Shown one piece after another: positions 4,839 through 46,118 of a stretch of DNA of 64,000 bases. This DNA comes from Liolophura sinensis (Eukaryota > Mollusca > Polyplacophora > Chitonida > Chitonidae). The DNA lies in the NCBI RefSeq assembly GCF_032854445.1, contig NC_088303.1, forward strand, positions 18,917,501 to 18,981,500. Reading direction: 5' to 3'. Each line of letters opens with the position of its first letter. Position 1 is the first letter of the stretch. The notes under the pieces were generated by a model that was given only the letters and a program-made list of their open reading frames with translations, did not search any database and had not been told where the DNA came from. The translations under genes and the position numbers were made by a program.

Positions 4839-7800
4839 ATGATATACCTGTCCAGAACCCTTCTTTTTCAAGAAATCCTCATTTTTGTGTGTCTTGGCTG
4901 TTTAAGAGCTAACTTAACAGAAGCAGACGGAGTGGTGGCGCTCAGTAAGGATCCGCCAGATCTTGACATTGCTAAACTGTCCCGACAAAAACGTGCATCG
5001 GGTACTGTGATTCCAATATCTATGGAAGAAAGGGAGGCTGGTGTATTACGCCACAATGAGTATAGGGCAAAGCAAAATGCTTCTAATATGGAATATATGG
5101 TTCGTATAATATTACGTGATTTATCACAGAACATTTAAGACTTGTCATTCTTTTTGATTTCGTCCTTGTTGACATATTTGGTTTACTACCTCTGTTGCAA
5201 AGCTTCGTTTTTTTTTAAATTTCCAATGCTTTTCTTGTAGACATGGAATTCTGAGCTTGCAAGAATGGCGGAGGAATACATTGGGAAATGTGTGTTTGAG
5301 CACAGTGACATGTTGAATAGAGATAAAGAATATGACTTCACCTATAAACGAGTTGGAGAGAATCTACATTACAACACAAAAGAGTTAAGCCTGGCCAAGG
5401 CCGTGGATGCCTGGTATATAGAAATCAATGACTACACGTACGAGTCGAACACGTGTGCTACAGGGAAAGTGTGCGGTCATTACACACAGGTATGTGTTCC
5501 TTTGTCCAAACTCATTTATATTTTTTAAATTGGGTTTTGCTTAATGCTACAATCAAAAATTCTTCCCCTATAGTCGTCAGTTTATGGATTGAGGAAATTG
5601 GTGTATCCAGCGTAAACCACCCACCTTTGGCAGGTTACTGACGAACTTTCCCCGATATGACGTACAAACACGCGCACACCATAACGGTGAACTGCAACGA
5701 CCGTAAAAGTGAGCAAGCGGCCCCAGAAGCGCCACCCATTGTCACCAAGACCTCATAAGCTGTGAGAGCGGAGTAATCTTCAAATCCCTTCAAAAATTTT
5801 TTGGTTTTTTTTTTTTTTGGTTTTTTTTTTCATGGCTTAATAACTTCAGGCTTCAATAAGAATGATAAAACTCTGTCCCTCCCGGGCTTCCGTACAATGG
5901 AAAGACCACTGAAAACTACCAATTATTTTGTTTTGAACTGAGTCACGTATATTCCGACGGATGTATTTCCTTTATTGACCGCGAGAATACTGTTACATGC
6001 CTCATGTAAAATTGCTTTACTTTCTATTTCAAATTCGGGTGAAATTCTTGTGAAATTTTCTAGTCTATAAGTTGTTTGAGTATAAATGAGTGCTGTTAGA
6101 GAATATACATGTCCATGACGCCATATCCACTGCATCAATGGTTCGACCAATGGTTCACGACTTTTTTACATGTATTCCTGATTATGTAGCGTGGAATTAC
6201 CATCATTCTCACACGTTCAGATCTCGTGTATTAGTGGTAACCAGACTTGGGATTAACACCGAGGATTAACACCGATCAGGAGACATATAGAATCATCTTT
6301 ATCCGTTTGTTTCTTTATCTTTATCTTTTACTTGCCAAAGTTCGGTCGTTTACTCCGGGTAGTCCGTATTCCGGCACCCATGCATAAATTGACTGCGTGG
6401 CATCTCATATACGTGAAATATTACTAAGTACAGCGTTAAACCGATCAAATAAGTAAATATGTAAATGTAATAAATGTCATTACAACGAAAGTAATAAATA
6501 AACACTCTTTTGTCTCGTACAAAAAATTGTGTTTGCGTACAGGTTGTTTGGGCAAAGTCGGAGATGGTGGGCTGCGCTAAAGTCATGTGTCCACTGCTAG
6601 AAGTTCCCTACAAAAAGAAGACGGTGAAGAATGCTGTATACACGGGATGTAATTACGGAGGACCGTATGTTAAGTTTTACTTATCCATTTATATTGAGTG
6701 GTGTTCAGTATGTATCAAGAAGTATTTACTTGCATGTGTCTGACGTCTGGTAGGTTTATGAATTGAAGAAAGCGGAGTGCCAGGAGGAACCACCTGAAGG
6801 CGATATATTCCTTGAAACATGATTCTTCTCAGAAGGCCTCCTTGCTACATGTACTCATCGAGTTTGTTTCCTTTTCCTGGTATTCATTTCGCCATTAGTT
6901 TATTCATTTACTTCTGTTTGATATGTTAGATAATGAATCACGCAGGGGATTGTTCTTATTAATATTAGTTTCCGCAATAGAATACAAATACAACATGTAG
7001 CTCAGGCCGCTGTATTATGCTTTAATGATTGGTATGTTTTTAATTTCCGGGCATCTTTTGTCGATATAAGATTCGAAACCCCACTCAAAATATCAAGTTT
7101 AAAAAGAATTCGTATAACCATATGCAAATGTTTATTAGAATAATTAAACGCAAGTGCTATAGAGTAAAGTGTAAATTATGAGTATCGTATTCATATGAAC
7201 AATTTTCATCAAGATGTTACTTTTGGTTTCGATATTGTAAAAGAAAAGTCATGCAATATTACACTATTTTAACTGGCCGATGGCGGCCAGGATTATGGTA
7301 GGAGGAAACCGTGCAGAGCCTGGAGGAAACTCGCGGCCATCCGCTGGTTGCAGCAACACCTTCTCAAGTATGGCCAGAGAGGGAGCCAGCACGAGCTTGA
7401 CTTGAACTCACAGCTACCTCATAGGTGAGAGGCGCCTGGGTCATTGCGCCTTGTTGTCGTGCTAATCCCCTCAGCTACGGAGGCCCGCTATATGTATTGT
7501 ATTTGACCTCTCATAGAACAGTTAATTACGCTGCTTGAGATTTTATTTCATACGATTTTCTCGCCTGTGGTGTGTTTTTCTGGGACAGAACATAATGTAC
7601 AATGCTCTCTCCAGCCTGTCTATGATCAGATGTCCAGTAGGAGGACATCACCCACTAACCGGATATCGTTAGCGCTTCAGTGGCATATTAGGGTCTAGAA
7701 CGTGTTTTACCAGATCACGACATAAAAGCGTAAAAAAGCCATTGAATGCGTTGCGTGACCCTTGGGTTTTCCTGCGCTTTTTACATATACCGTCAGAAGG

Positions 7801-10800
7801 TTGGCTATCTTGCTTTTGTGATGTCATGAAAAGGGAAGCATATTTTTGGTTTGCAGTAGTTTTCACAGCTCAATCCTTTGTGCACATAATACGTTCAGAT
7901 TACGATGAATTGTAGGAAAATAGAATTGTACTTTGAACAAACATAAAGCTACAATGAACAAAAAACTTCACATGTGGAGAAATGAATTATATTGAATACA
8001 AGGTAGTTAAAATGGACGAATGCCATAATGGCCTGGTCTCACCTGACGAATCCAACCATTTCAGTTGTGGTGAACCACGCGGGGTCCATGCCGGGTGCTC
8101 TTTCGAGGTCACGTGACCACAATTTTATTTGGCTGAGCACTAAGGCGTGTGAAGAAGTTGCTGGTGATTACAAAAAAAAAGTTAACAATCTTTGGCATGC
8201 TCCAAACTGTCCAGTGGATGTTGCACGTGTCATGAGATGCAGTAGACGGACAGGTAACACCCTGAGGGGCGCCTCAGTGACTCAGTTGGTAAGCGCGCTA
8301 GCGCAGCGTAATGACCCAGGAACCTCTCACCAATGCGGTCGCTGTGAGTTCAAGTCCAGCTCATGCTGGCTTCCTCTCCGGCCGTACGTGCGGATGGTCG
8401 TGGGTTTTCCCTGGGCTCTGGCCGGTTTTCTCCCACCGTAATACTGGCCGCCGTCGTATCAGTATATAATATTCTTGAGTACCGCGTAAAACACCAATGA
8501 AATAAATAAATAAATTATTTCATTACTTACTGAGGTTGTTTCTACACACGCCAATGATTTTTCACTGAGTTTTAGTTGATAACTATAACATCAATCAAAT
8601 AAATAAATCAAACAGTGAGGCCCTGTTTACGGTTTGTGTAACTCTCCAGAACATACCAAACCGCTTGCGCGCTGCCATTTTTTGTACCCGACGTGTTGGG
8701 CCGATTCTAACACAGATTAACTGCTATTAACGTCTACGCAGTGCACAATTTCAATTGCATTGGAATCAAATACGAAGGAATAGGGTTGTGTTCAGCGACG
8801 TATCACGTTTTACTTTGCGGTTTGCCGACGGGAGTGAACGTCATGCCTAGTGCTGCGTACAGGAAGTTGATCAATTTCGTGCTGGTGTTGAAGGTGCGCT
8901 TATGTCTTCTCGTAATTCGTGGGAACCTCATTGCAGTGGGATATCGTGACCAGGTTCTTGTTCCGGAGCTGGTGTCGTTCGTGGCTGCTCATGGTCCAGG
9001 CCTACTTGGCAATGCGACACACAGCTGTTTTCACACGAAATTGTCTGCAAAATGCTGGTATTGACGTCATGCGTGTCATGGAGTGGCCATCGAGATCGCC
9101 TGGCCTCGACCCCATCGTCTATTTGTTTATTTATTTGTTTATTTATTTTTATTTAGCACTATGGTAGGAGGACATCGGGCAGAGCCCGGGGAAAACCCAC
9201 GACCATCCGCAGGTTATTGGCAGACCTTCCCACGTACGGCCTGAGGGGATGCCAGCATGAGCTGGGCTTGAACTCACAGCGACCGCATTGGTGAGAGGCT
9301 CCTGGGTCATTACGCTGCGCTAGCGCGCTAACCAAGTGAGCCAAAGAAGCCCTTCCCATCGCCTATAAACCAAATTTATCCAGTAGAAACACACTTTGTT
9401 CCATGCATATTGGTATGTTTGGAACATAAAGTGACACATGAGAACTTTCTGTTTTTGTTCAGTATAGTTATGCAATGTCTGTTCATTTTAAAAATAAAAG
9501 ATAAAGAAGAACCAAACTACAAAATCGTTACGTTTGGAAATACTGTTGTTTTGCTTGGGCCAAATTTCGAATGAATGAAATCATGGTTTAACGACACATC
9601 ACCGAGTAATGTATGTATATATATACATGTAGCAGTGATTCTGTGGCGATATCAAACAGTTAAGGTGTTCAGTTGGCTCAGCCGGTTCTGACCTCAGGTT
9701 TTCACGGAGGAAGGTATGTATGTATGGAATATTGCAACAGTGAATGCATACTCCTTACAGCGCATGTGCCGCACTCCATGCTCGTCGTAGATCGCTTGCG
9801 CCACTAACACGAGCTTGATCTTTGGAGCCTGTGCGACGCATGTAAGCTTGCCTAGGCTTAGCTTCATCAAGCTAAGAGGAGTACTCGCGAGGAATTATTT
9901 AATTAGCATTCATCAATATGCATGTATTTGCTTGAAGGGTTGGTTTGAATCACGCTGTGCATACTTTATATGATAAAAGAATGCACGTGTATAAAAAAGC
10001 ATTGGAAGCAAAGGTCGAGACAGAGTTTTTTGTGTTTTCTCAATGTTTTCTGCTTTATCGCCGTGACTAAGGTGACCTCGACGTTATTTAAGATTTCTGT
10101 ACCAAAATGCGAGTGCTGGCAGTGATTTGAAACGAATGTAGAGAGCGATGCATGCACTATTGATCACCTGAATGATCATTTAAACGTCAACATTTTTTTT
10201 CCTTTTCAGGCATCTTGCTTTTCTGTCAATTCAGCTTTTGTGGTGTTACTTGATTGTTCAGTGTCGCTCATTTCATCTCCTTTTCAAATGACTTTAGTGG
10301 TAACATGGCTGCTGTTAAGCCCTTCCTACTGGGAGACCCGTGTTCAGCGTGTGATCAAAAGAGCTACCCCACTGACCATGGTTGTAAAATGGGCATGTGT
10401 TGTAAGTATTTATTTCAATTATCGGCATACCTCTCTACAGGGTGTCAGTTCTTGTATAGGAGAAGCTATACAATTGCTTTAGGCAATATCAAGCGTCTTT
10501 GATCTAAGACAACTGTATCCCCGGTTTGGTCATCAACCGACAAAAAACTGTTTGAATATTAAATCAAATCAGTAAATATACATAAGCGGACATATTTTCA
10601 TTAAAAATCCCTTCAGGTTTGGTTTTGGTCAAATAATTGTGCAATGTTTGCAGAAGAATTAGACCAATGTCTCCCATAACAAACAGCCGGCCCGGATAGC
10701 ACAGTTGGCAGAGCGTCCGCTTCGGGACCGGTAGATCCAGGATCAATCCTTGATCGAGTCACACCTTAAAAGAGGAAGTTGTAGCTTCCTCGCGTGGCGT

Positions 10801-12691
10801 TCAGCATGAAGGTTGATAGTTCAACGACTGGTTGACCCGTATCAGTATAATGGCTCGGGTGGGGCGGCTTACTTGCCTTGGGTAAGTCGTCTAAGTGAAG
10901 CAGCACTAAGTAAAAGAGCGGTGGAAATCCGTCCTGTAACAAGGAGGCACATTACACGTACATGCACCCTAATGATTCCTTCGCCGTCGTATGACTGAAA
11001 AATTGTTGAGTACGACGTTAAACCCCAAGCACTCACTCACTCCATAACAAACATAGATATTTATTAAAAAACCATCAACCTTGCAGTCAAATAAATAAAT
11101 AATTCATTACTATGTCGAAAAAGGATGCACAGTCAGTGTACGTTTTAACTATTCCCGGTATTAACCGGATGATTTTGATCTTAAAATAATTATGTAAGTA
11201 TTCTTGATTACTTGTAATCATTTTCCTTCATTTTAAGGTTAGGTTTGTGACATGGACACTTGACTAGTAAATGACAGATTGTTGTCAAACCATTCAGCAT
11301 GTTATTTATTTATTTATTTATTTAATATTTCTTGAATGGTGTTTTTTGCCGTGCTCAAATGTATTGTATTTCTATGATGGCTGTCAGATATATAAGCGCA
11401 GATCCTAGGAAAAACATCCACATTTGATCAGGCGTCTGATGGACCCTTTACAAGATGTTATGAATTTACGACTGAACAGTTGGTCTAAATTAGACTCTGC
11501 TGAGAACATGAATCAGATTAGATTTGTTTTACTGTGATAGATATAGAGACTGACGAGGAAGAAGGGGCAAACAGTGGTGTTACCGGGACAAACAGTGGTG
11601 TTACCGGGGCAAACAGTGGTGGTACCGGGACAAACAGTGGTGGTACCGGGGTAAACAGTGGTGGTACCGGGACAAACAGTGGTGGTACCGGGGTAAACAG
11701 TGGTGGTACCGGGACAAACAGTGGTGGTACCGGAACAAACGGTGGTGGTACCGGGACAAACGGTGGAGGTACCGGGACAAACGGTGGTGGTACCGGGACA
11801 AACAGTGGTGGTACCGGGACAAACGGTGGTGGTACCGGGACAAACAGTGGTGGTACCGGGACAAACAGTGGTGGTACCGGGACAAACGGTGGTGGTACCG
11901 GGACAAACGGTGGTGGTACCGGGACAAACAGTGGTGGTATCGGGGCAAACAGTGGTGGTACCGAGACAAACAGTGGTGGTACCGGGACAAACAGTGGTGG
12001 TACCGGGACAAACGGTGGTGGTACCGGGACAAACGGTGGTGGTACCGGGACAAACGGTGGTGGTACCGGGACAAACAGTGGTGGTACCGGGACAAACGGT
12101 GGTGGTACCGGGACAAACGGTGGTGGTACCGGGACAAACAGTGGTGGTACCGGGACAAACAGTGGTGGTACCGGGACAAACGGTGGTGGTACCGGGCCAA
12201 ACAGTGGTGTTACCGGGGCAAACGGTGGTGTTACCGGGGCAAACAGTGGTGGTACCGGGACAAACGGTGGTGTTACAGGGGCAAACAGTGGTGGTACCGG
12301 GACAAACGGTGGTGGTACCGGGCCAAACAGTGGTGTTACCGGGGCAAACGGTGGTGTTACCGGGGCAAACAGTGGTGGTACCGGGACAAACGGTGGTGTT
12401 ACAGGGGCAAACAGTGGTGTTACCGGGGCAAACAGTGGTGGTACCGGGACAAACGGTGGTGTTACAGGGGCAAACAGTGGTGGTACCGGGACAAACGGTG
12501 GTGGTACCGGGGCAAACGGTGGTGTTACCGGGGCAAACAGTGATGGTACCGGGACAAACGGTGGTGGAACAGGCACAGATACCGGTAGCGTAGACGGAGA
12601 TGGGAACGGAAATCCCGCTGGTTGTTTGCGGACCTTTAACTACCACATTGTGTTTCCCCTTACTGTATTGTACACTACATTGTCTCAGTGA
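4839..12691 (+). CDS. Secreted CAP-domain protein with 48 x 7-residue repeat tail (5 exons)
   Basis: Joined exons 4839-5099, 5241-5489, 6543-6664, 10298-10401 and 11541-12691 give 628 residues; phases 0,0,2,1 agree at every join. Residues 1-26 look like a signal peptide and a basic RQKR site ends at 52. The CAP (SCP/antigen-5/PR-1) domain follows: HNEYR at 72-76, a WNSELA stretch from 89, GEN at 126-128, WYIE at 145-148, GHYTQ at 166-170, then VVWA in exon 3. The usual tetrad is present (H72, E127, E148, H167). A YGGPGN turn and a Cys-rich hinge (CSAC, HGC, GMC) complete the CRISP/GLIPR-like unit. Residues 255-590 are 48 repeats of TNSGGTG type, and the end is a hydrophobic segment compatible with GPI attachment. 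The first four exons are convincing; the join to exon 5 rests on phase and an acceptor at 11540. The first donor (gttcgt) is weak. Ligand and function are unknown. Confidence 0.8.
5575..5790 (+). repeat. Dispersed repeat fragment in CAP intron 2
   Basis: The stretch ggcaggttactgacgaac with gtaaaccacccacc resembles 62680-62705 (gataaaccatcgac, ggcaagttactgacga) and the repeat at 30-260. It ends beside a T-rich run at 5796-5831. No coding capacity is seen. Confidence 0.5.
7270..7490 (-). repeat. tRNA-derived SINE, family A
   Basis: Reverse-strand copy: the forward strand reads gaggaaacc, ccatccgctggttg, then the complement of the tRNA-like head ending in ctcagctacggaggcc. It is diverged and lacks the AAAT tail. 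Confidence 0.8.
8265..8513 (+). repeat. tRNA-derived SINE, family A
   Basis: The tRNA-like head has an A-box-like ctcagttggtaagcg and a B-box-like gagttcaagtcc. It is followed by the body (cggatggtcgtgggttt, ctggccgccgtcgtat) and the 3' core aatattcttgagtaccgcg with an (AAAT)n tail. A 137-residue ORF spanning it is a by-product. Confidence 0.85.
8640..9117 (+). pseudogene. Tc1/mariner-type transposase remnant
   Basis: Two overlapping frames together match the C-terminal half of Tc1-like transposases. One frame gives a [13 protein letters not shown] stretch followed by HGPG; after a frameshift near 9015 the other gives LQNAGIDVM and SRSPGLDPI. These correspond to the family's GNLTA-Y-eVL, PHTA, LqnagI and W-a-SPDLNPIE blocks. 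The frameshift and missing catalytic context make it a dead copy. Its right part is interrupted by a SINE at 9118. Confidence 0.75.
9118..9354 (-). repeat. Family A SINE nested in the Tc1 remnant, with TSD
   Basis: This is a reverse-strand copy with the (ATTT)n complement of its tail at the left and the tRNA-like head at the right (gcgctagcgcgctaaccaag). It is bordered by the 7-bp direct repeat CCCATCG at 9111-9117 and 9355-9361. The insertion falls directly after the SPGLDPI codons of the Tc1 remnant, so it post-dates that element. Confidence 0.85.
10686..11041 (+). repeat. Full-length family B tRNA-derived SINE with 12-bp TSD
   Basis: The head reads as a tRNA-like sequence with A box tagcacagttggcagagcg and B box region gatccaggatcaatcc. 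The body includes gcgtggcgttcagcatgaag and aatggctcgggtggggcggc. The end is attgttgagtacgacgttaa followed by a (CACT)n tail. The target duplication CCATAACAAACA is perfect at 10674-10685 and 11042-11053. It lies in intron 4 of the CAP gene. The intact ends suggest a young insertion. Confidence 0.9.
11297..11365 (-). repeat. Family A SINE tail fragment
   Basis: The complement of the 3' core (tttcttgaatggtg, gccgtgctcaa) follows a (TTTA)n run that is the reversed tail. It lies about 180 bp upstream of CAP exon 5. Confidence 0.5.
11567..12574 (+). repeat. 21-bp coding minisatellite (48 units)
   Basis: The unit is 21 bp (acaaacagtggtggtaccggg type) and encodes TNSGGTG, with variants NGGGTG, NSGVTG and NGGVTG and an A/P swap before Asn. 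Forty-eight units keep one open frame, and most contain a GGTACC (KpnI) site. The 3' half is organised in larger blocks: the pattern starting with a P-N-S unit near 12196 recurs about 126 bp later near 12322. The unit has no stop in several frames, so long antisense ORFs also appear here; these are not separate genes. Confidence 0.95.
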
Positions 12692-13792
12692 GCTGTTGTT
12701 GTTAACTGGTTTAATAATGATTTGACACACCTTGGGTCATCTGCTGTGTTTTGAACAATCTCGTCTGTGATAACACCCTGCTGTTAAATGTAACTACTAT
12801 ACAAACGTGGGACGGTACAAATCTTTTTCTCTGTGAATAATATATATATGTGGCAGTTTCAACACTCACCAAACATCCACTTGCAGTTATAGTCGGAAAT
12901 GTGCGAATAAGTCCTTATATACAAGGTAAAAAGAAAAATTAACGGCATTAATTAGTGTTGGCCGATCACAGGTTAACAGTCAAAGCTGTGACATAGCTGT
13001 ACAAAACAGCCTCTGACCGGGCTTTTGCCTCATCGGGTAATCAACTTGTTCATTGTTTCTATCCAAGGTCCCCTATTGGCGGCAGTGATTCAGCACAGGG
13101 GAGCGGAGCATGCACATTCTGACACTCCAGGATAAATGCGGGGGAGGGCATCCTGTGAGGGTAGTGGTCCATCTAGAATGGCACCTCATATAAGACTATA
13201 TCCTAACATTCATCACATTTATATAAATAATAACAAATTCAAATATCAGCGATGAAAATCCTGACATTTCACTTTAATTTTCGCGAAAGCTATTTTCGCT
13301 TTACACACTTTGTTAACAAACGATATATTTTGGTTTTAATTGCGACATTTATGCTGGTGAGCATGATGGGGATGTTTGTTAGTTTGTACCATGATATGCT
13401 TTATATATGTGTGTTTGTTTTGATTTGTAAGCTTTTATGTAACTCAAACTGGTCTCAATATATCTGTATCTTTGTGTTCACTCTTTACTTCGTGTTACTC
13501 ATGGTTTTTTAACTTAACATTTACTTCTTGATGACTTTAGGTTTCATTCTATTTCCGGTAAAAGTGATTGTGACGACAAATAAAGTCACAGGGGGATGTA
13601 ACAGTTCCACAGGATCTGTGGAGGCAAGCGTTCGTCTTTGCAGGAAAGATGTTTTCTCAAAAAACCAACCCTCCCCCCCCCCCCTTCCTCTTCAAGACTA
13701 ATATGAACTAGGCAAAGCCTAAGACCGGGCGTAGTGTAAATTTATGTCAAATTAATGCCTGATCTATGCATATTATATACATTTAGGCCGTT

Positions 13793-14033
13793 CCTCGCTT
13801 GGCGTTCAGCATGAAGGGGATAGTGCAACGACTGGTTGACCCGTATCAGTATAATGGCTCGGGCGGGGCGACGTCTTGGGTAAGGTGTCTCAGTGAGGCA
13901 GCACTATAAAAGAGCGGTGGAAATCTGTCCTGCAACAGGGAGGCACATTGCATGCACTCAAATGATTCTTTCGTCACCATATGACTGAAAAATTGTTAAG
14001 TACGACGTTAAACCTCAAGCACTCACTCACTGA
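13793..14033 (+). repeat. Family B SINE, 5'-truncated
   Basis: It starts inside the body (cgcttggcgttcagcatgaa) and continues to attgttaagtacgacgttaa and (CACT)n. The tRNA-like head is missing. It is more diverged than the copy at 10686. Confidence 0.8.
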
Positions 14034-15065
14034 TCTCGAATTCAGAAATTGTCAATCTTGCAGGCTGTGGATTCACACTGGTATAAGACCCATGTAAAAT
14101 TAACACTTCCTACAGATCTGTCTGGTTGATTCTTGCTTCTACATTTAACATCAGCAGTGGTTAATGCTTAATTGTAGCTACAAAGGATAAGATATGCTTG
14201 CCACGTTAATGTTTATTTTAAGATACACAAAGTATACGGTATGAATAAACTTCAAGAACATGATGCAAAGCCTATCAAAGACCTTCAGATAGACTTGATT
14301 AATGGCTGACTGTTTTGCAAGTTTAGTTTGAAATAGTGTCAGGTAGGCTACCTGGGAAGGTATGGTGCATGGTTTTCTCCAGTCTCTACTTGGTTTCATT
14401 TACCCGTGAAATTTATTGACAGCATTGAAGTGAAAATTTTTGTGTGCGACATAAAAAAAATCAGTTGCCTGCGGTTGTACGTGTGAAGATCGTGGGTTTC
14501 CTTTGGACACTGCCGGTTTCCTCTCACCCTAATTTACGGTGTAAATCAGTGATCATGCCATAAAGCCTAGGGCGAACGCAGTACATTCTGATTAGATGTG
14601 TAAAGCCTAATAACTTTACATGCACTATTAAAAGTATAGGAGCCTACGCATGCAGTTAAGAAAAAAGGCCTCCATCTTCATTCAACATCACACGTTTCTC
14701 TCTTATCTTCAATCGCTCAGTAAGTGTACTTTTACGTGTGACTTCACGCCAATGCATGGATATGATTAACATGTCCGTAACGGATGCGAACAGGGTGTGG
14801 CAAAACTCCCACTGCTAATAACAAAGCTTTTAACAAAGAATAATTCTTTATACGTAGTGTGCACGCACAAGTTATAGTAACAAAAACACTTAAGATGGAC
14901 TTCAGTGGGCTCGAGCTACAGTATATCGCTTGACAAAACTTTTGGTTATAAACTTATTTGCCGTGGAGGGGAAACGGTTAATCTTTTCGATCTCACTTTA
15001 GCAACTGTGCGCAATTTAGTTCTTTAATTACAAACTTGATTGCAATGTATATATTTCCACTACAC

Positions 15066-15228
15066 TTTGATAAACGAGCGTCTTCTTTGTACCCGATATG
15101 GCAGCCTTCACAGCATTAACGACGGTCATGCGCTCTGACTGGCCAGTTGACATGCTTTCAACCAATGTGTATTGATCAATCAGCTCACCTGAGTTTCTAG
15201 TACCATGGAGACACTCGTTTATCAAAAT
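15066..15228. mobile_element. Short element with terminal inverted repeats (MITE-like)
   Basis: The left end TTTGATAAACGAGCGTCTTC is matched by the reverse complement of the right end (TTTGATAAACGAGTGTCTCC), and the match extends over about 27 bp with a few mismatches. The element is about 163 bp long with no coding capacity. I could not identify an unambiguous target duplication. Confidence 0.65.
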
Positions 15229-15316
15229 GCATTGGGAATTTTTACTTTACAGTCGCAGTTTGCAAATAAAGGACCAATGGCGAGTCCATATTTGATGTTT
15301 TATTAGTACCCCGGTG

Positions 15317-15580
15317 AGGGGCCTCCGTGGCCGAGGGGGTAACACGCCAGCGCGGCGAAATAGCCCAGGAGCCTCTCACCAGTGCGGTTGATTGTGAGTT
15401 TAAGTCCAGCTCATGTTGGCTTCCTTCCCGTCTATACCTGGGAAGGTCTATCAGCAACCTGCAGATGGCAGCCTAGTGGTTTTCTCCCGAGCTCTACCCG
15501 GTTTCCTCCCACCATAATGCTGAACGCCGTCGTCTAAGTGAACTATTCTTGAGTACAGCGTAAATAAAAAGAAATAATTA
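15317..15580 (+). repeat. Family A SINE, diverged
   Basis: The head is ggcctccgtggccgaggggg with a gagtttaagtcc B-box. It is followed by gcaacctgcagatgg, a gtttcctcccaccataatgc block and the 3' core attcttgagtacagcgtaa. Confidence 0.85.
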
Positions 15581-16997
15581 AATAGCTATCCCATCGTGTC
15601 TGTGATGGTTTCAAGCCCCCTATGTCTTTCATCGAGGTGGCGTTAAACCATACTCATTCATTCTTTCGTCGTCTTGAACGTCATTGACCGATTCTCATTT
15701 CTCCGTCACGTGACACAGTCATTCGGGCCGGAAACGCCATTAGTTGTCAACACATGCAGTAACGTCATCGTTTTAGGTGGTTGAAAATTGAAATTGTGGT
15801 TATCTGTTCGTCGACATTTGAGGGGGGAAATGTATGCAAGATTGTTTGATCGCAAATAGGTTGTAACTAGTTCCCTACAAGGTTAACAGACTATCTTGAA
15901 TCATATCATGATTGCGTGAGGTTGATAGGCCAGCTCGGTAAGGTAAGTAGATCGCCAAATCTGGCGTCAGCTTCTTTCGTGGATCTGGATTAGTACGATG
16001 TAGGTGCGAGTTCATGCGAGGCCTTGTAAAATTTAAGGGTGGAGAAAACACAAAAAATTACAGTTTAGATGAAAGAGTTCGAAAAGATAGTTGTAAATGC
16101 GGTCAATTTTTTCTTCAAAGAGAAAAAGTCACTGGAAAATAAGTATATAATAAGTATTTTGGACCACCTTTTGGTATGCATTGTTTTTGCGTAATAATGT
16201 TGTAAATGAGGATGTAACACACGTTTAATAAATACATTTGAACTAGAATTTGGTCTTTCCATCCAACACGTGTTCAGTCTGGGTTTTGATCATATTTATA
16301 TTTTTAATACATTTGTAAATATTATGATAGTTAAATTAAATGCATGCAAATTTACATTCAAATGAATTTATAATGACATTCATGCATCACATCCTTATTT
16401 ACACGTAGAACATTATTATGCAAGGATGATAAATACCAAAAGTTGGTCCCAAAATACCCACCATACAAAAATACTTTCAAACGCCCTTTTCTCCTGAGAG
16501 AAAATATCGAATAAAATAGTAAAGGCTATATTTGCAAATAAGCTTTCACGCTCTTTCATCTGATTTTGGCATCGTCTTAATGTTTGTTCTCCGTTTGCGA
16601 CTGGTCCCATCGCGACTCAGATAAACTTAAAGGAGATTCCAACGACTTCACTTTCACAGCAAATGTTCTCTAGACGCAATATTTATGCTATGTTAGTCTG
16701 TAAACTGTATTTTAATAAAAATGTTATGTTAATCAGTTGCATTAAAAGAAAAACATTTAAGCTGGACCATCTGCCGACATGTATCTTGTCAGCAGTGGAG
16801 CCTTGGCCAGGTGTCGGGATAATGTTTTGAAGCATCACCCACGTTTTTACAGAAGTCATGGTATAACTTAATTTATAAATACCTCTACGTGTACACCTCT
16901 TAACTGAAACCTGAAAATCATATAAGTACAACAGTTTCACAACAATTATTTTTAAAGATAACGGAGTTGCATTAGATCCTTGAAAATCGTGTACAGC

Positions 16998-23578: not shown

Positions 23579-26500
23579 TCACACGCCAGCTAAGACCTCC
23601 TCGGTTAATCCATTTACTGTTGCCACTCTGTCCAAACACCTTTTGTAATTGTCATAGTCCCTCATAAAGCCTGGGATCCTGGTATTTCCCAAATCAGCCA
23701 GTTCCTTCAGTCTATCAACATCCTGGTATGCAATTTTTCCTAATGAGAGAAGTAACTGGAAATCTATTGAATTTCTGTGTTTAAGAAGTTCTAAGGCTCC
23801 ATCCAGATAAACCTGGTCCTTGCAAAACCCTCCTGAAAAGTTGAACAGCAAATTATGAGTGGAAAACAGGCAATATCCAAAAAAATGTATACTATACTTA
23901 ATAAGTTTCAGCATGTATTAGTTGATTTGCTGAAACACATCTGTTATGTTTCTTTCTGGGTGGATAAATGAACGAACTTTCTCTAGTGTAACATTTCATG
24001 CTGGTGGACGGAGAATGTGATGTGTGACCACACCACCTGCATGCAACTCCTAATGAGAGCTACATGACAGCCTTAAGAACAATAAATGCAACAGAAAACA
24101 AAGTCAATTCTCTGCCCAAGAATGAGACTGAACCCATATACATGTATATCCCATGCTACCAGTGAAAGACTAAAGCCTCAATGACTTGGCCTCTGCTCGC
24201 TCATCTTTTCCTGAGTTCATGTTCATGTGTTTAATTCAGTACCCCTGCATCGCCTGTTTATGTATTTAATACTGTGCATCCCCAGTTCATGTTAATGTCA
24301 TAATACAGCGCTCCTCAGTTCACGTTAATATCGTAATACAGCGCTCCTTAATTCATGTTCATATCATAATACAGCACTCCTCAGTTCTTCTTTATGTCAT
24401 AATACAGCTCTCCTCAGTTCATGTTCGTCATAATACAGCGCTCCTCAGTTCACGTTAATGTCATGATACAGCGCTCCTCAGTTCATGTTAATGTCATAAT
24501 ACAGTGCTCCTCAGTTAATCTTCATGTCATAATACAGCTCTCCTCAGTTCATGTTCAAGTCATAATACAGCGCTCCTCGTTTCACGTTAATGTCATTATT
24601 GGCGCTCCTCAGTTCATCTTCATTTCATAATACAGCGCTCAGTTCATGTTCATGTCATAATACAGCGCTCCTCAGTTTACTTTCATGTCATAACACAGCG
24701 CTCCTCAGTTTACCTTCATGTCATAATACAGCGCTCCCAAGTCCATATTCATGTCATAATACAGCGCAATTCATGTTAATGTCATAATACCGTACCCCTC
24801 AGTTCATGTTCATGTCATTATACAGCGCCCCTCAGTTCATGTTCATGTCATAATACAGCGCTCCACAGTTCATGCTAATGTCATAACACAGTGCTCCTAA
24901 ATTCATGTTCATGTCATAATACAGCCCTGCTCAGTTCATGTTAATGTCATAATACAGCGCTCTTCAGTTCATGTTAATGTCATAATATAGTGCTCCTCAG
25001 TTCATGTTCATGTCATAATATCTTATCAGTTTATGTTATGTTTATTACAGTACCCTCAGTTCGTTTTGACGTGTGTAATACAGTGCTCATTAGTTCATGC
25101 TGCTATGTTTAATACAGTGCTGATCAGTTCATATTATGGTTATAATAGTGCTCCTCAGTTCATATTGTTGTGGTTAATTTGGTTCTCCTCGGTTGATGTT
25201 GATATGTTCAATACAGTGCTTCCTCAGTCCATGTTGGTATGTTTAATACAGTGCTCTTCGGTTTATGTTGGTATGTTTAAGTGCTCTTCAGTTCATGGTG
25301 TTATGTTTAATACAATTCTAATCAGTTCGTGCTGATATGTTTATTACAGTGCCTGTCAGATCATGTCGATATGTTCAATACAGTGCTCTTCAGTTCATGT
25401 TGGTATGTTTAATACAACGCTCTTCAGTTCATGGTGCTATGTTGAATACAGTGCTCTTCAGTTCATGGTGCTACATGTATGTTTACTAGAGTACCCCTCA
25501 GTTTATACTGATATGTTTAATACACCGCTTCTTAGTTCATGTTGTTATGTTTATTAAAATTTATATCTGTGTAGATGTATGTTGCCGAGAAAGGCCATGC
25601 GATTTGATATAAAGCATAAACAATGTCTGCTTAGTTGACTTTAAAAATTGTAGAGTGTGAGCATACATATAGCAAGACATGCCATCCATCACACACAAAC
25701 CACGTGCATTTCCATGTGGCACTTGCAGCCAGGTGTAAGGTTTTGGAAAGTCTTTCAATCCCTGAGACATCCCTGATGTCTGTTCTAATGTCTACGGTAA
25801 ATTTAGAATTGCGAAGAATAGCTTATTCCATATGTGAATTTATATATTCCCTAATTATTTTAAATGTATCCTCGAAGATACCAATGATGCCGTATAACGT
25901 GGCATGTCATGTCAAGTAATAATGTTACCTCTGTTCCTACCCCTTGGAAGCCTCATTCAGTTCTCTCAGACATTATACTGAACTAAACTATATTCTTGAC
26001 AAACACACGAGAAAAAGAATGATTAAATTACTATCTAAGACTTCAGACAAAAACAGGAAGTTGGCAGCTGGTACATGTATATATCCTGCGGAGATTTTCA
26101 AACAGCTTTCCGCAATCATCTGTACGCCCGCTGGAATACCTACAAACCAGTCCTATCACATAACAGCAGTAATAATACAGTGCTTCTCAGTTCAGGTTGA
26201 TATGTTTAATGCCGTGCTTCACAAGTTCCTCTTGATATGCTCAATACCATGAATACAGCACTGTCTCAGTTCATGTTGATATGTTAAACACAGTGCTTCT
26301 TGCTTCATGTTGATATGTCTGATGCAGTGGTCCTCGGCTGGTGTTGATATATTTAATGCAGTGCTCCTCAGTTCATAATGGTATGTTTTAAACAGTGCTC
26401 CTCAGTTCATGTTGATTTGTTTAACACTGTGCTCATCAGTTTGTGTTGAAATGTTTAATACAGTGCTCCTCATTTCATATTGATGTGTTTAAAACAGTGT

Positions 26501-43055: not shown

Positions 43056-45110
43056 ATACATTTAGCTCGTTAACGGCTGTGTTAAAAATGAGAAAATATC
43101 AATCGGATCTCCAACAATCCTAACAAAAATGGCAGCTAGGAGCGAGACAAACCCAGAATCCAGTATATCAAGGCAGATACAAAGTAAACACAACTGGAAC
43201 TGAGCCGAATCCTAGGCTGTCGATGGAAGTCTGCAATGTTTTAGCATTGGCACATCTTCATTTGATCAAGCCGGCGATGTCCGACATCATCTTTCTTACC
43301 ATTCACACTGCCTAATCAGGTTTCACTTTATACCCTAGTTATTGACGCTTACAGTTCAAAACAACAACATGGGATGTGTCTATTGTTACGACCCAAACTG
43401 CCTGTATTATAAAGAGATGGCTTGTTCGAAATACACGACAGTTTAGCCGCACAAAAAAGTAACCAAAACCAGCAGATTTTATTTTACAACAATTTATTAG
43501 CTTAACAAGAACAGATAATAAGACTTATACAAATATTAAGGTACTTAAGTTTAACAAGAAAGGATAGCAGTATCTATACAAATACTAAGGTACTTACGGT
43601 GTCAAGTCCAAACGGACGCATATATTCCACAATATATATACCACACAGGCATAAATGCTCAGAGGCAAATTCACAAGGTGGAAAATCCACAGTATAACTG
43701 AGTGTATGACGAAATATACACAAAAAATGCTCGGTGGAGATAGGATATAACAAAGCCAGAGGCTATAGAGACACTAAAATTCAGCACAAAAGGCCTACTA
43801 AAATAATACACAGCGAAAGCATCCAAACTCTCAATAATTCTTCCATCTCCGATCTCTGTTCTCTCCCTCTGGCCTGCTTTCATAGGTCTTATATAACCTC
43901 GTGGAATTGTCCAGAATAAGAAAATTCCTGAACACTTGATGTAAACAAACAGGCACTAAGTTCAGACAGGTATGCTAAGTTCAGACAGCACTCCCTGAAC
44001 TTAGCATATGTAAACAGTGGCAAGCTATATTTAGAAACTGACGGCAGTCGTGCACATAACACTGTAGTGAGAAGTGTGCGATGTGCGGAATATATTTATT
44101 TCACTCAAGACGTAAAAGTGCTAGCGCAAAAAAAAAAAATAATTTCTCGCACATGGACGTGTTAAGGATTATTATAGGGGGGAACGCTCATTTTGAAGCA
44201 AAATAACTTTGACAGAAATTAGTGGCGCAACAACAACAACATAGGCTACATCGATAGGTTGTTCTATCTCTCTCGTTATCACCGGTATTGCCTAATAGCA
44301 CAGAGACTTTCAGCTGCCTACTTGTTTTAGTAAAAGCACATCTATAACCGTCCACAGCACTGCTTACTGTTGTTATATAACGCTGTGTCAAGGAATAAAT
44401 CGGACCCGAGCTTACATGCATTTACATTTCGAAACAAGGAAAGACACAATTACAAAGGACGATCAGTGATGGGCTGAAAATGCCTTGGCGGAAGTATTTG
44501 GCCCGCATTGCCATTCTCTGTCAAAAGAATAGGTTTCTGGAGACTTTTATAGGTACACTAAAAGCAAAGACGAATACGAAGCGCATGGCAAGTAGGCCAA
44601 TCATCTTGCTGACAGGAAGATGATCATACTATCCCGGACAAAATTACACTAAAACTGGCCATGACAAACTAAGGCTACTTTAGACAGAAACGGCGCCAGA
44701 CAAGCATTTGATCTGACTTAATTTAATAAATGTTTATAACTGTTCACAATCATATCTCCACACATAGATGTACCTACGGGGGCGGTCATTTTCATGGCCG
44801 AAGAACACCATCGTGTCCAAAGTGAAACAATGATCTTCTACAAGTTACAGACGAGCCTTCTCATTTATAACATGCCAACTCGCACGTCATGCATATTGGT
44901 AGAAGACAAATGGTCTTCAACGAACGTAAGACTGCGCGACTGGTCCCACCCATATCCGTCACCGCACATTATCCTAGTACCTTATGAATAATAAGTGTCA
45001 AGGAACGTATACAAATCCTCTTTCCAAGAAAAGGATTGAAGTCTATGTAATATAAATTTATGGAAATAAATTAAATTTGAGACATTTTTTGCAGCTACAG
45101 AAGAACTGTT
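43056..45110. other. Intergenic, upstream of the epimerase
   Basis: No gene is recognised. A partial 60-bp direct duplication lies at about 43498-43600 (ttaacaagaa, tacaaatactaaggtactta). A perfect 14-bp inverted repeat is at 43971-44008. Just before the epimerase ATG, ttttttgcag at 45085-45094 could be the acceptor of a 5' UTR intron. Confidence 0.5.
43971..44008. repeat. Perfect 14-bp inverted repeat (hairpin)
   Basis: The arms tatgctaagttcag (43971-43984) and ctgaacttagcata (43995-44008) flank a 10-nt loop. A direct copy of ctaagttcagacag lies just upstream at 43956-43969. There is no T-run and no neighbouring gene end, so it is not called a terminator. Confidence 0.8.
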
Positions 45111-46118
45111 ATGGAATCAAATGAGAAATGCCTGCCAGGACGCAGCGGTGAGAATGGGCATGACATGGGAAGGAGCATTGGGCATGTTCTGGTCACGGGA
45201 GGGGGTGGCTACCTGGGCACCACGCTTGTACCCATGCTCCTAGAGCACGGCTACGAGGTCACCATATTCGACGTGTTCTTGTGGGGAGTGACTTACTCCC
45301 TTCCGTACGCCGACCATCCCAAGTTCCATATCGTAAAGGGGGATGTCCGGGACAGAGATCAGCTTGAGATTGCTATGGAAGGAAAAGATGGCGTCGTGCA
45401 CTTGGCGGCAATAGTGGGCTATCCAGCCTGTGACCGCGATAAAGAGTCAGCGTACCAAATCAACGTGATCGGCACGAAAAACGTGACGGAACTGTTAAAG
45501 TCCTCGCAGAAGTTGGTGTACGCGTCGTCTGGATCGTGCTATGGCTCCGTAGAAGGCGTGTGCACGGAAGACACCCCGATTAGCCCGCTGACGCTGTATG
45601 GCAGCACTAAAGCAGAGGGGGAACGGCTGTGTGTTCAGGTGGGTGGTGTGGCTCTGAGACTGGCAACTGTGTTCGGCGTATCCCCTAGGATAAGACTGGA
45701 CCTACTCATCAACGACTTTACTCAGAGAGCACTGTGTGAGGGAAAACTTGAGGTTTATCAAGGCAACTTCCGGCGCACCTTTCTGCACGTGAAGGACGCA
45801 GCGCGTGCGTTCATGTTTGCTCTACTCAATTACAAAGCGATGAAAAGCAAGGCTTACAATGTTGGAGACGAGCGTATGAATATGACGAAATCCGATGTCG
45901 CCATTGCCATTCAGAAGCTGGTAAAAGACTGCACAGTCACTGAGACCGTTGGAGAAGACTTGGACAAGAGAAACTATGAAGTATCGTACAACATGATAAA
46001 GAGCCTGGGGTTTACATCCACCATATCGGTGGAGGAAGGTATTCAACATCTCATTAAAGTCTTGCCGTATATGAACAGTTCGGAAATATCGCGTGCTCGT
46101 AACTTTTGGCAAATGTGA
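45111..46118 (+). CDS. NAD-dependent epimerase/dehydratase (extended SDR), intronless
   Basis: A single 335-residue open frame, with an in-frame TGA at 45078-45080 upstream of the chosen ATG. It has the extended short-chain dehydrogenase plan: Rossmann motif TGGGGYLG at 29-36, acidic Asp54 at the end of the second strand, HLAAIVGYPACD at 97-108 and YASSGSCYG at 137-145. The catalytic YxxxK is Tyr163-Lys167, and FLHVKDAARA follows in the sugar-binding half. Such enzymes epimerise, reduce or dehydrate nucleotide sugars; the substrate cannot be read from sequence. Length matches bacterial homologues (about 300-340). The gene is clearly richer in G+C than its AT-rich surroundings, and the VGYPACD variant is, as I recall, common in bacterial members. 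A transfer from bacteria or an old retrocopy are both possible. No signal peptide or membrane segment, so probably cytosolic. Confidence 0.9.
   Translation: MESNEKCLPGRSGENGHDMGRSIGHVLVTGGGGYLGTTLVPMLLEHGYEVTIFDVFLWGVTYSLPYADHPKFHIVKGDVRDRDQLEIAMEGKDGVVHLAAIVGYPACDRDKESAYQINVIGTKNVTELLKSSQKLVYASSGSCYGSVEGVCTEDTPISPLTLYGSTKAEGERLCVQVGGVALRLATVFGVSPRIRLDLLINDFTQRALCEGKLEVYQGNFRRTFLHVKDAARAFMFALLNYKAMKSKAYNVGDERMNMTKSDVAIAIQKLVKDCTVTETVGEDLDKRNYEVSYNMIKSLGFTSTISVEEGIQHLIKVLPYMNSSEISRARNFWQM

Follow-up and report, generated by a model that had tools for sequence, protein, structure and literature searches.

A CAP gene and a large minisatellite on contig C9

The stretch analysed here, called the window throughout, comprises 64,000 nucleotides of the Liolophura sinensis genome (contig C9, positions 18917501-18981500), and genome searches were run against the assembly of 609,464,459 bases in 632 contigs from which it comes. 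The genome was originally published under the name L. japonica (PMC11068029), which a later correction changed to L. sinensis (PMC12441733). The features discussed below are collected in Table 1.

The plus strand of the window carries a CAP gene that can be modelled with five exons, the spliced translation giving 628 residues with a stop codon at 12689-12691. Its four introns all have GT/AG borders and are in phases 0, 0, 2 and 1, in that order. The intron limits given in an earlier note on this DNA are those of the flanking exon bases. The predicted N-terminus is hydrophobic, with 12-residue windows reaching a hydropathy of 2.46, and an RQKR motif can be seen by eye ahead of the CAP domain. 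The model recovers every part listed in the earlier note: behind a signal-like N-terminus come RQKR and the CAP domain with its tetrad, then a hinge with four Cys, 336 residues arranged in 48 heptads and, last, a C-terminus that is hydrophobic.

Table 1. Features of the window, numbered from its first base
Feature	Position	Strand	Description
Exon 1	4839..5099	+	Start codon at 4839, signal-like hydrophobic N-terminus, propeptide-like stretch to RQKR, CAP start HNEYRA
Exon 2	5241..5489	+	CAP core holding all four tetrad residues, His-Glu-Glu-His (FEH, VGEN, WYIEI, GHYTQ)
Exon 3	6543..6664	+	VVWAKS...CNYGG; end of the CAP domain
Interspersed repeats	7262-7490, 8265-8500, 9140-9350, 10690-11030		Inside the CAP introns; approximate limits; resemble tRNA-derived SINEs by eye
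Exon 4	10298..10401	+	GLIPR1-type short hinge; phase-1 donor right behind the last Cys
Probable exon 5 (last)	11541..12691	+	Acidic IETDEEE start, array, Gly/Asp-rich remnant, hydrophobic C-terminus, stop
Minisatellite, 48 x 21 bases	11564..12571	+	Heptads mostly G-(T/A/V/P)-N-(S/G)-G-(G/V)-T
GPI-signal-like tail	12602..12688	+	Candidate omega triplet AGC and hydrophobic core; judged by a crude rule
MATCAP (microtubule-associated tyrosine carboxypeptidase) match	23582-23917	-	Pfam 1.6e-6; probably an exon
NAD-dependent epimerase/dehydratase family match	45081-46118	+	Open frame of 345 codons, Pfam 8.4e-40

The CAP head and its relatives in the genome

Residues 71-189 match the Pfam CAP family (PF00188) with an E-value of 1.5e-18 and a score of 68.1 bits, against a cut-off of 21.1. 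A search against CAP families had been proposed in the earlier note, and the Pfam result agrees with the CAP assignment made there, the tetrad being kept. Human GLIPR1 (PDB 3q2r) ranks first, with E 4.2e-30, among 19 distinct PDB sequences found at a cut-off of E 0.001, and the four residues that we take to be the CAP tetrad, His-Glu-Glu-His (motifs in Table 1), align between the two proteins, as does the CSAC of the hinge with a CSAC in GLIPR1. A short four-Cys hinge of this kind, which here follows the CAP domain, is a mark of GLIPR1/PI16-type CAP proteins, and five other CAP genes of this genome have a similar one. Human GLIPR1 has the CAP domain, the tetrad and the short CSxC hinge as in the window protein; it differs in ending in a transmembrane segment and is not known to carry a repeat stalk. 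A C-terminal Cys-rich ion-channel-regulator domain of the CRISP type is absent from the model: exon 5 matches nothing in Pfam up to E 10 and contains a single Cys, located in the tail. At the level of sequence comparison, the assignment of the head to a GLIPR1-type CAP domain with an intact tetrad is solid.

The first four exons are backed both by this homology and by intron positions that are common to paralogs, and this part of the earlier interpretation stands. In the CAP gene found at loci L013/L014 on contig C1, introns 1, 2 and 3 interrupt the coding sequence at the same residue and in the same phase as in the window gene; in a second CAP gene of the same contig (L010), introns 2 and 3 match in place and phase, intron 1 being unread there. 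A phase-1 donor lies at the last Cys of the hinge or one codon past it in 6/6 hinge exons, the window's included, a count restricted to CAP matches whose hinge exon could be located. Exon 4 and its donor are thus considered sound. Both C1 genes have the introns and the hinge of the window gene, but they differ in what comes next. By eye, L014 carries two Cys-rich ShK-like segments after the hinge (about 1538-1795 and 2565-2742), and in L010 the hinge is followed by what seems to be a long charged exon. Judging by the two ShK-like exons of L014, the CAP genes of this genome may carry different modules behind one shared phase-1 intron.

The nearest relatives are sequences at C5:13681488 (50% identity over exon 2) and C6:53290561 (50% identity), and a pair on C9, minus strand, with 54% and 45% identity over exon 3, which precede the window by about 25 kb and 6 kb. 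No further exon was seen by eye in the 3.5 kb downstream of the C5 paralog. The two minus-strand matches, at C9:18891933 (L041) and C9:18911130 (L044), are two more CAP genes or fragments, and since they stand so shortly before the window, the window gene is part of a small CAP cluster.

Another paralog, a single-exon gene at C6:51519617 (L002 1171-2238, minus strand), is 26% identical to the window head and lacks a repeat. Like the window protein, it has a basic motif (KVKR) before the CAP domain and a hydrophobic, GPI-like C-terminus; unlike it, it has a degenerate tetrad, and a single open frame spans the stretch that is interrupted by introns in the window gene. It has the look of a retrocopy whose frame has remained intact. 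Its hydrophobic end suggests that a GPI-like C-terminus is perhaps not peculiar to the window gene in this genome.

At two other loci, the end of CAP exon 2 is itself copied beside the exon. Eight matches like WYSEGQHYVYSNNSCTQVCEHYTQV were found in L045 (C9:1371285, minus strand), and several weaker copies in L043 (C5:4763356, minus strand), as though the exon-intron border had given rise to a minisatellite.

The array as a DNA repeat

The repeat is far beyond chance. All of its 48 units are exactly 21 bases long, but they fall into 15 distinct DNA units and 12 distinct heptads, the most frequent being GTNGGGT (15/48) and GTNSGGT (10/48). The array had been called perfect in the earlier note; this holds for unit length and fails for sequence. 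As that note also said, an N-x-S/T sequon is absent from the whole array. Its 336 residues comprise 152 Gly (45%), 78 Thr (23%), 48 Asn (14%) and 27 Ser (8%), with only 2 Pro (0.6%) and 2 acidic residues. Units 30-34 are identical to units 36-40, and this recurrence of a five-unit block six units further on is expected from a recent tandem duplication.

When the variant cells of the units are sorted by codon position, 38 fall at position 1, 16 at position 2 and 7 at position 3; residue-changing variants make up 8 of the 12 distinct ones observed, compared with 46 of the 63 possible. The variation shows no sign of amino-acid or codon constraint and, being concentrated at codon position 1, gives the picture of an array made uniform at the DNA level and not by constraint on its residues. 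Furthermore, all six frames of the array are open over at least 200 codons, three of them across its whole length, so that openness alone is no evidence of coding.

Large arrays are frequent in the DNA sampled. The sample, which is not random, covers 264 kb, of which 64 kb come from the window and 200 kb from loci surrounding matches to the CAP profile; seven of these loci adjoin on C13. In it we counted 29 arrays of at least 8 copies and a period of 10-90, the window array included. Sixteen of these 29 have a period divisible by 3, and 11, again with the window array, have 0% indels (rounded). We have consequently dropped two arguments for coding: the open frame, given six open frames, the absence of constraint and the frequency of large arrays, and the indel-free length, which is found in 11/29 large arrays. 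A DNA search of the genome, which skips very common words and for this reason does not prove rarity, matched the array itself at full strength and returned no second copy of it; the five remaining matches, at 66-74% identity, all fall within repeat arrays elsewhere. An expansion of a repeat-exon family was rejected, since translation of those arrays shows no relation to the window array.

Probable joining of exon 4 to the repeat exon

The argument for a repeat-coding last exon hence depends on its surroundings. With a rough splice matrix, the acceptor at 11541 ranks 4th among the 299 AG sites in 10440-16500, and on the same matrix two of the three upstream acceptors, which belong to exons 2-4, score lower. 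At the three sites ranked above it (11238, 15259 and 11243), a frame in the phase demanded by exon 4 closes after 1 to 3 codons. From 11541, the array is entered after 23 bases, in a frame closed upstream by an in-frame TAG at 11519; this same frame continues for 39 codons beyond the array and ends in a hydrophobic, uncharged tail. A point against this last exon is that the first AATAAA past the stop codon comes at 13579 (0.9 kb on), although an AATATA lies at 12839.

The array could instead be a non-coding minisatellite located in the last intron, in the 3' untranslated region or downstream of the gene, with the true last exon elsewhere or with exon 4 read on into the intron as far as a TGA some 35 codons away. 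Several observations would fit this explanation: large minisatellites are common in the sequence sampled, the six open frames and the lack of visible amino-acid constraint are what a non-coding repeat could also give, and no paralog with such a last exon turned up in the genome, among relatives other than those on C9 and C5. Moreover, rival acceptors exist in the right phase. Two are among the 15 best-scoring sites, 13541 with an open frame of 53 codons and 14721 with one of 32; a third, 13250, scores poorly but leads into 87 open codons whose end is hydrophobic. The tail peptide itself has no convincing relatives elsewhere in the genome, the one other match having an E-value of 0.43. Against a non-coding array, the donor of intron 4 is a GTAAGT at the conserved phase-1 place, which makes a plain read-through unlikely; a good in-phase acceptor stands 23 bases ahead of the array; and the frame runs through the repeat into a GPI-like tail. 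Altogether we judge a non-coding array to be unlikely, while giving it appreciable weight, and from the sequence context exon 4 probably joins the repeat exon at 11541. Of the earlier interpretation, the head, the hinge and exons 1-4 are thus well founded, and the connection between exon 4 and the repeat exon is likely, given the in-phase acceptor, the frame and the tail.

The C-terminus and the nature of the putative stalk

The tail was compared with GPI signals by means of a crude rule, written after the tail had been seen. It is passed by the window tail (score 1.9), by the C6:51519617 paralog (2.7) and by a CD59 tail (2.5); that the window tail scores lowest of the three counts against the anchor. 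Among 592 open frames of at least 45 codons in the window, taken as background, 28 pass the rule and 14 score as high as the window tail. Considered jointly, a genuine exon 5 and a GPI anchor are the combination towards which we lean, with modest confidence.

Three other readings of the exon 5 product were considered. One is a heptad beta-roll such as bacterial trimeric autotransporters form from their head repeats (Hep_Hag, YadA_head), since exon 5 matches a bacterial adhesin chain (PDB 7o23) in heptad register with an E-value of 1.1e-11. However, when a 168-residue half of the array was compared with three column-scrambled controls, one control matched 7o23 better than the real sequence (5.9e-15 vs 1.4e-7), the two others giving no match up to E 10 and a match at E 0.0092, and the Pfam families of such repeats do not appear at E 10 either. 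Composition and period thus account for the 7o23 match; the likeness to an autotransporter passenger was rejected on the scrambled control that outscored the real array, and we give a beta-roll practically no credence.

In a second reading, the array would be the stalk of a proteoglycan bearing glycosaminoglycans on Ser-Gly pairs. It contains 26 SG dipeptides, and an acidic DEEE cluster precedes the first of them. The attachment motif of proteoglycans is SGxG near acidic residues, and 0/26 SG sites fit SGxG in an array that has just the 2 acidic residues counted above. A proteoglycan stalk was rejected on this count and is very improbable.

The third reading accepts the exon but sees in its product a secreted or matrix-embedded protein (mucus, egg coat, cuticle or tooth), in which the repeat would be a Gly-rich structural or O-glycosylated segment and the hydrophobic end would not be a GPI signal. 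The composition of the array, dominated by Gly, Thr, Asn and Ser, would suit such a protein. Nevertheless, the C-terminus lacks charges and is hydrophobic, features that it shares with GPI signals, and the near absence of Pro is unlike the usual PTS repeats of mucins; a mucin was rejected, the array being Thr-rich yet almost without Pro. A precedent for the matrix reading comes from the chiton tooth matrix protein RTMP1, described with a Gly/Ser-rich repetitive region in the main text of an article on the Cryptochiton radula (PMC6351634). Yet this same main text contains 0 occurrences of the CAP-family terms (CAP domain, allergen, GLIPR, peptidase inhibitor 16), and on this basis a role in the tooth matrix was rejected (PMC6351634). 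We hold a secreted or matrix-embedded protein to be improbable, though it is the most serious of these three readings.

Discussion

The protein that we favour on balance, by no wide measure, consists of a GLIPR1-type CAP ectodomain carried by a repeat spacer and attached to the membrane by a GPI anchor. Such a product would enter the secretory pathway by means of its signal peptide, and a short propeptide would probably be cut off at RQKR. The minisatellite may have arisen in the coding sequence or been captured by it, and would then have expanded and been homogenised as DNA. Its translation would give a spacer of about 336 residues rich in Gly, Thr, Asn and Ser, probably disordered and possibly glycosylated, and the C-terminus would most likely direct the addition of the GPI anchor. 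In this protein, the CAP head would be held off the cell surface by a long flexible tether and could bind a partner or a lipid, by analogy with other surface-held CAP proteins.

GLIPR1L1, which is not known to have a long heptad stalk, otherwise offers a first comparison. This CAP protein of mammalian sperm (also named MAK248) is GPI-linked, variably by species (PMC6824042), as the chiton protein may be. Its role is in sperm-egg binding. HrUrabin, on ascidian sperm, is reduced in size by PI-PLC and binds a vitelline-coat protein; HrUrabin and CiUrabin combine a CAP/PR domain and a GPI site at the sperm surface, in a chordate rather than a mollusc, and CiUrabin, at 40 kDa, leaves little room for a stalk of 336 residues of the chiton kind (PMC9265791). 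A similar layout is that of Pry3 in the yeast Saccharomyces cerevisiae, where a CAP domain, a Ser/Thr-rich stalk exceeding 600 residues and a predicted GPI site follow each other in the same order as the head, low-complexity stalk and putative GPI site of the chiton model. The GPI-anchored CAP domain of Pry3 is necessary and sufficient for mating inhibition, the stalk enhancing it only slightly (PMC7340583). Pry3 is, however, a fungal cell-wall protein, and its Ser/Thr-rich stalk differs from the Gly/Thr/Asn heptads of the chiton (PMC7340583).

The earlier note knew of no CAP protein with a long perfect heptad array. Taken as a claim that the layout has no counterpart, this cannot be maintained for the general plan: head, long stalk and GPI site are known together in Pry3, and GPI-anchored CAP proteins are known in Urabin and GLIPR1L1. 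It can be maintained for the regular Gly/Thr/Asn heptad stalk, for which a search of open-licence full texts with a few sets of terms found no paper on a CAP protein.

If the last exon is real, the chiton protein may work like Urabin, GLIPR1L1 and Pry3, and a task in fertilisation or in another kind of surface recognition can be proposed by analogy with the role of known GPI-anchored CAP proteins. A bolder idea, which we consider improbable, is that the minisatellite stalk is unstable, so that its length would differ between alleles and individuals and tune the reach of the CAP head, in a gamete or mucosal recognition protein.

Should the exon prove not to be expressed, the locus would serve as a warning that long open heptad frames beside genes come cheaply in minisatellite-rich genomes. 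If it is expressed, an animal CAP gene has incorporated a minisatellite that supplies a long, regular stalk at the place where Pry3 has its Ser/Thr-rich one, and the chiton gene would offer a simple test of whether repeat length, which can change rapidly, sets how far a surface recognition protein reaches.
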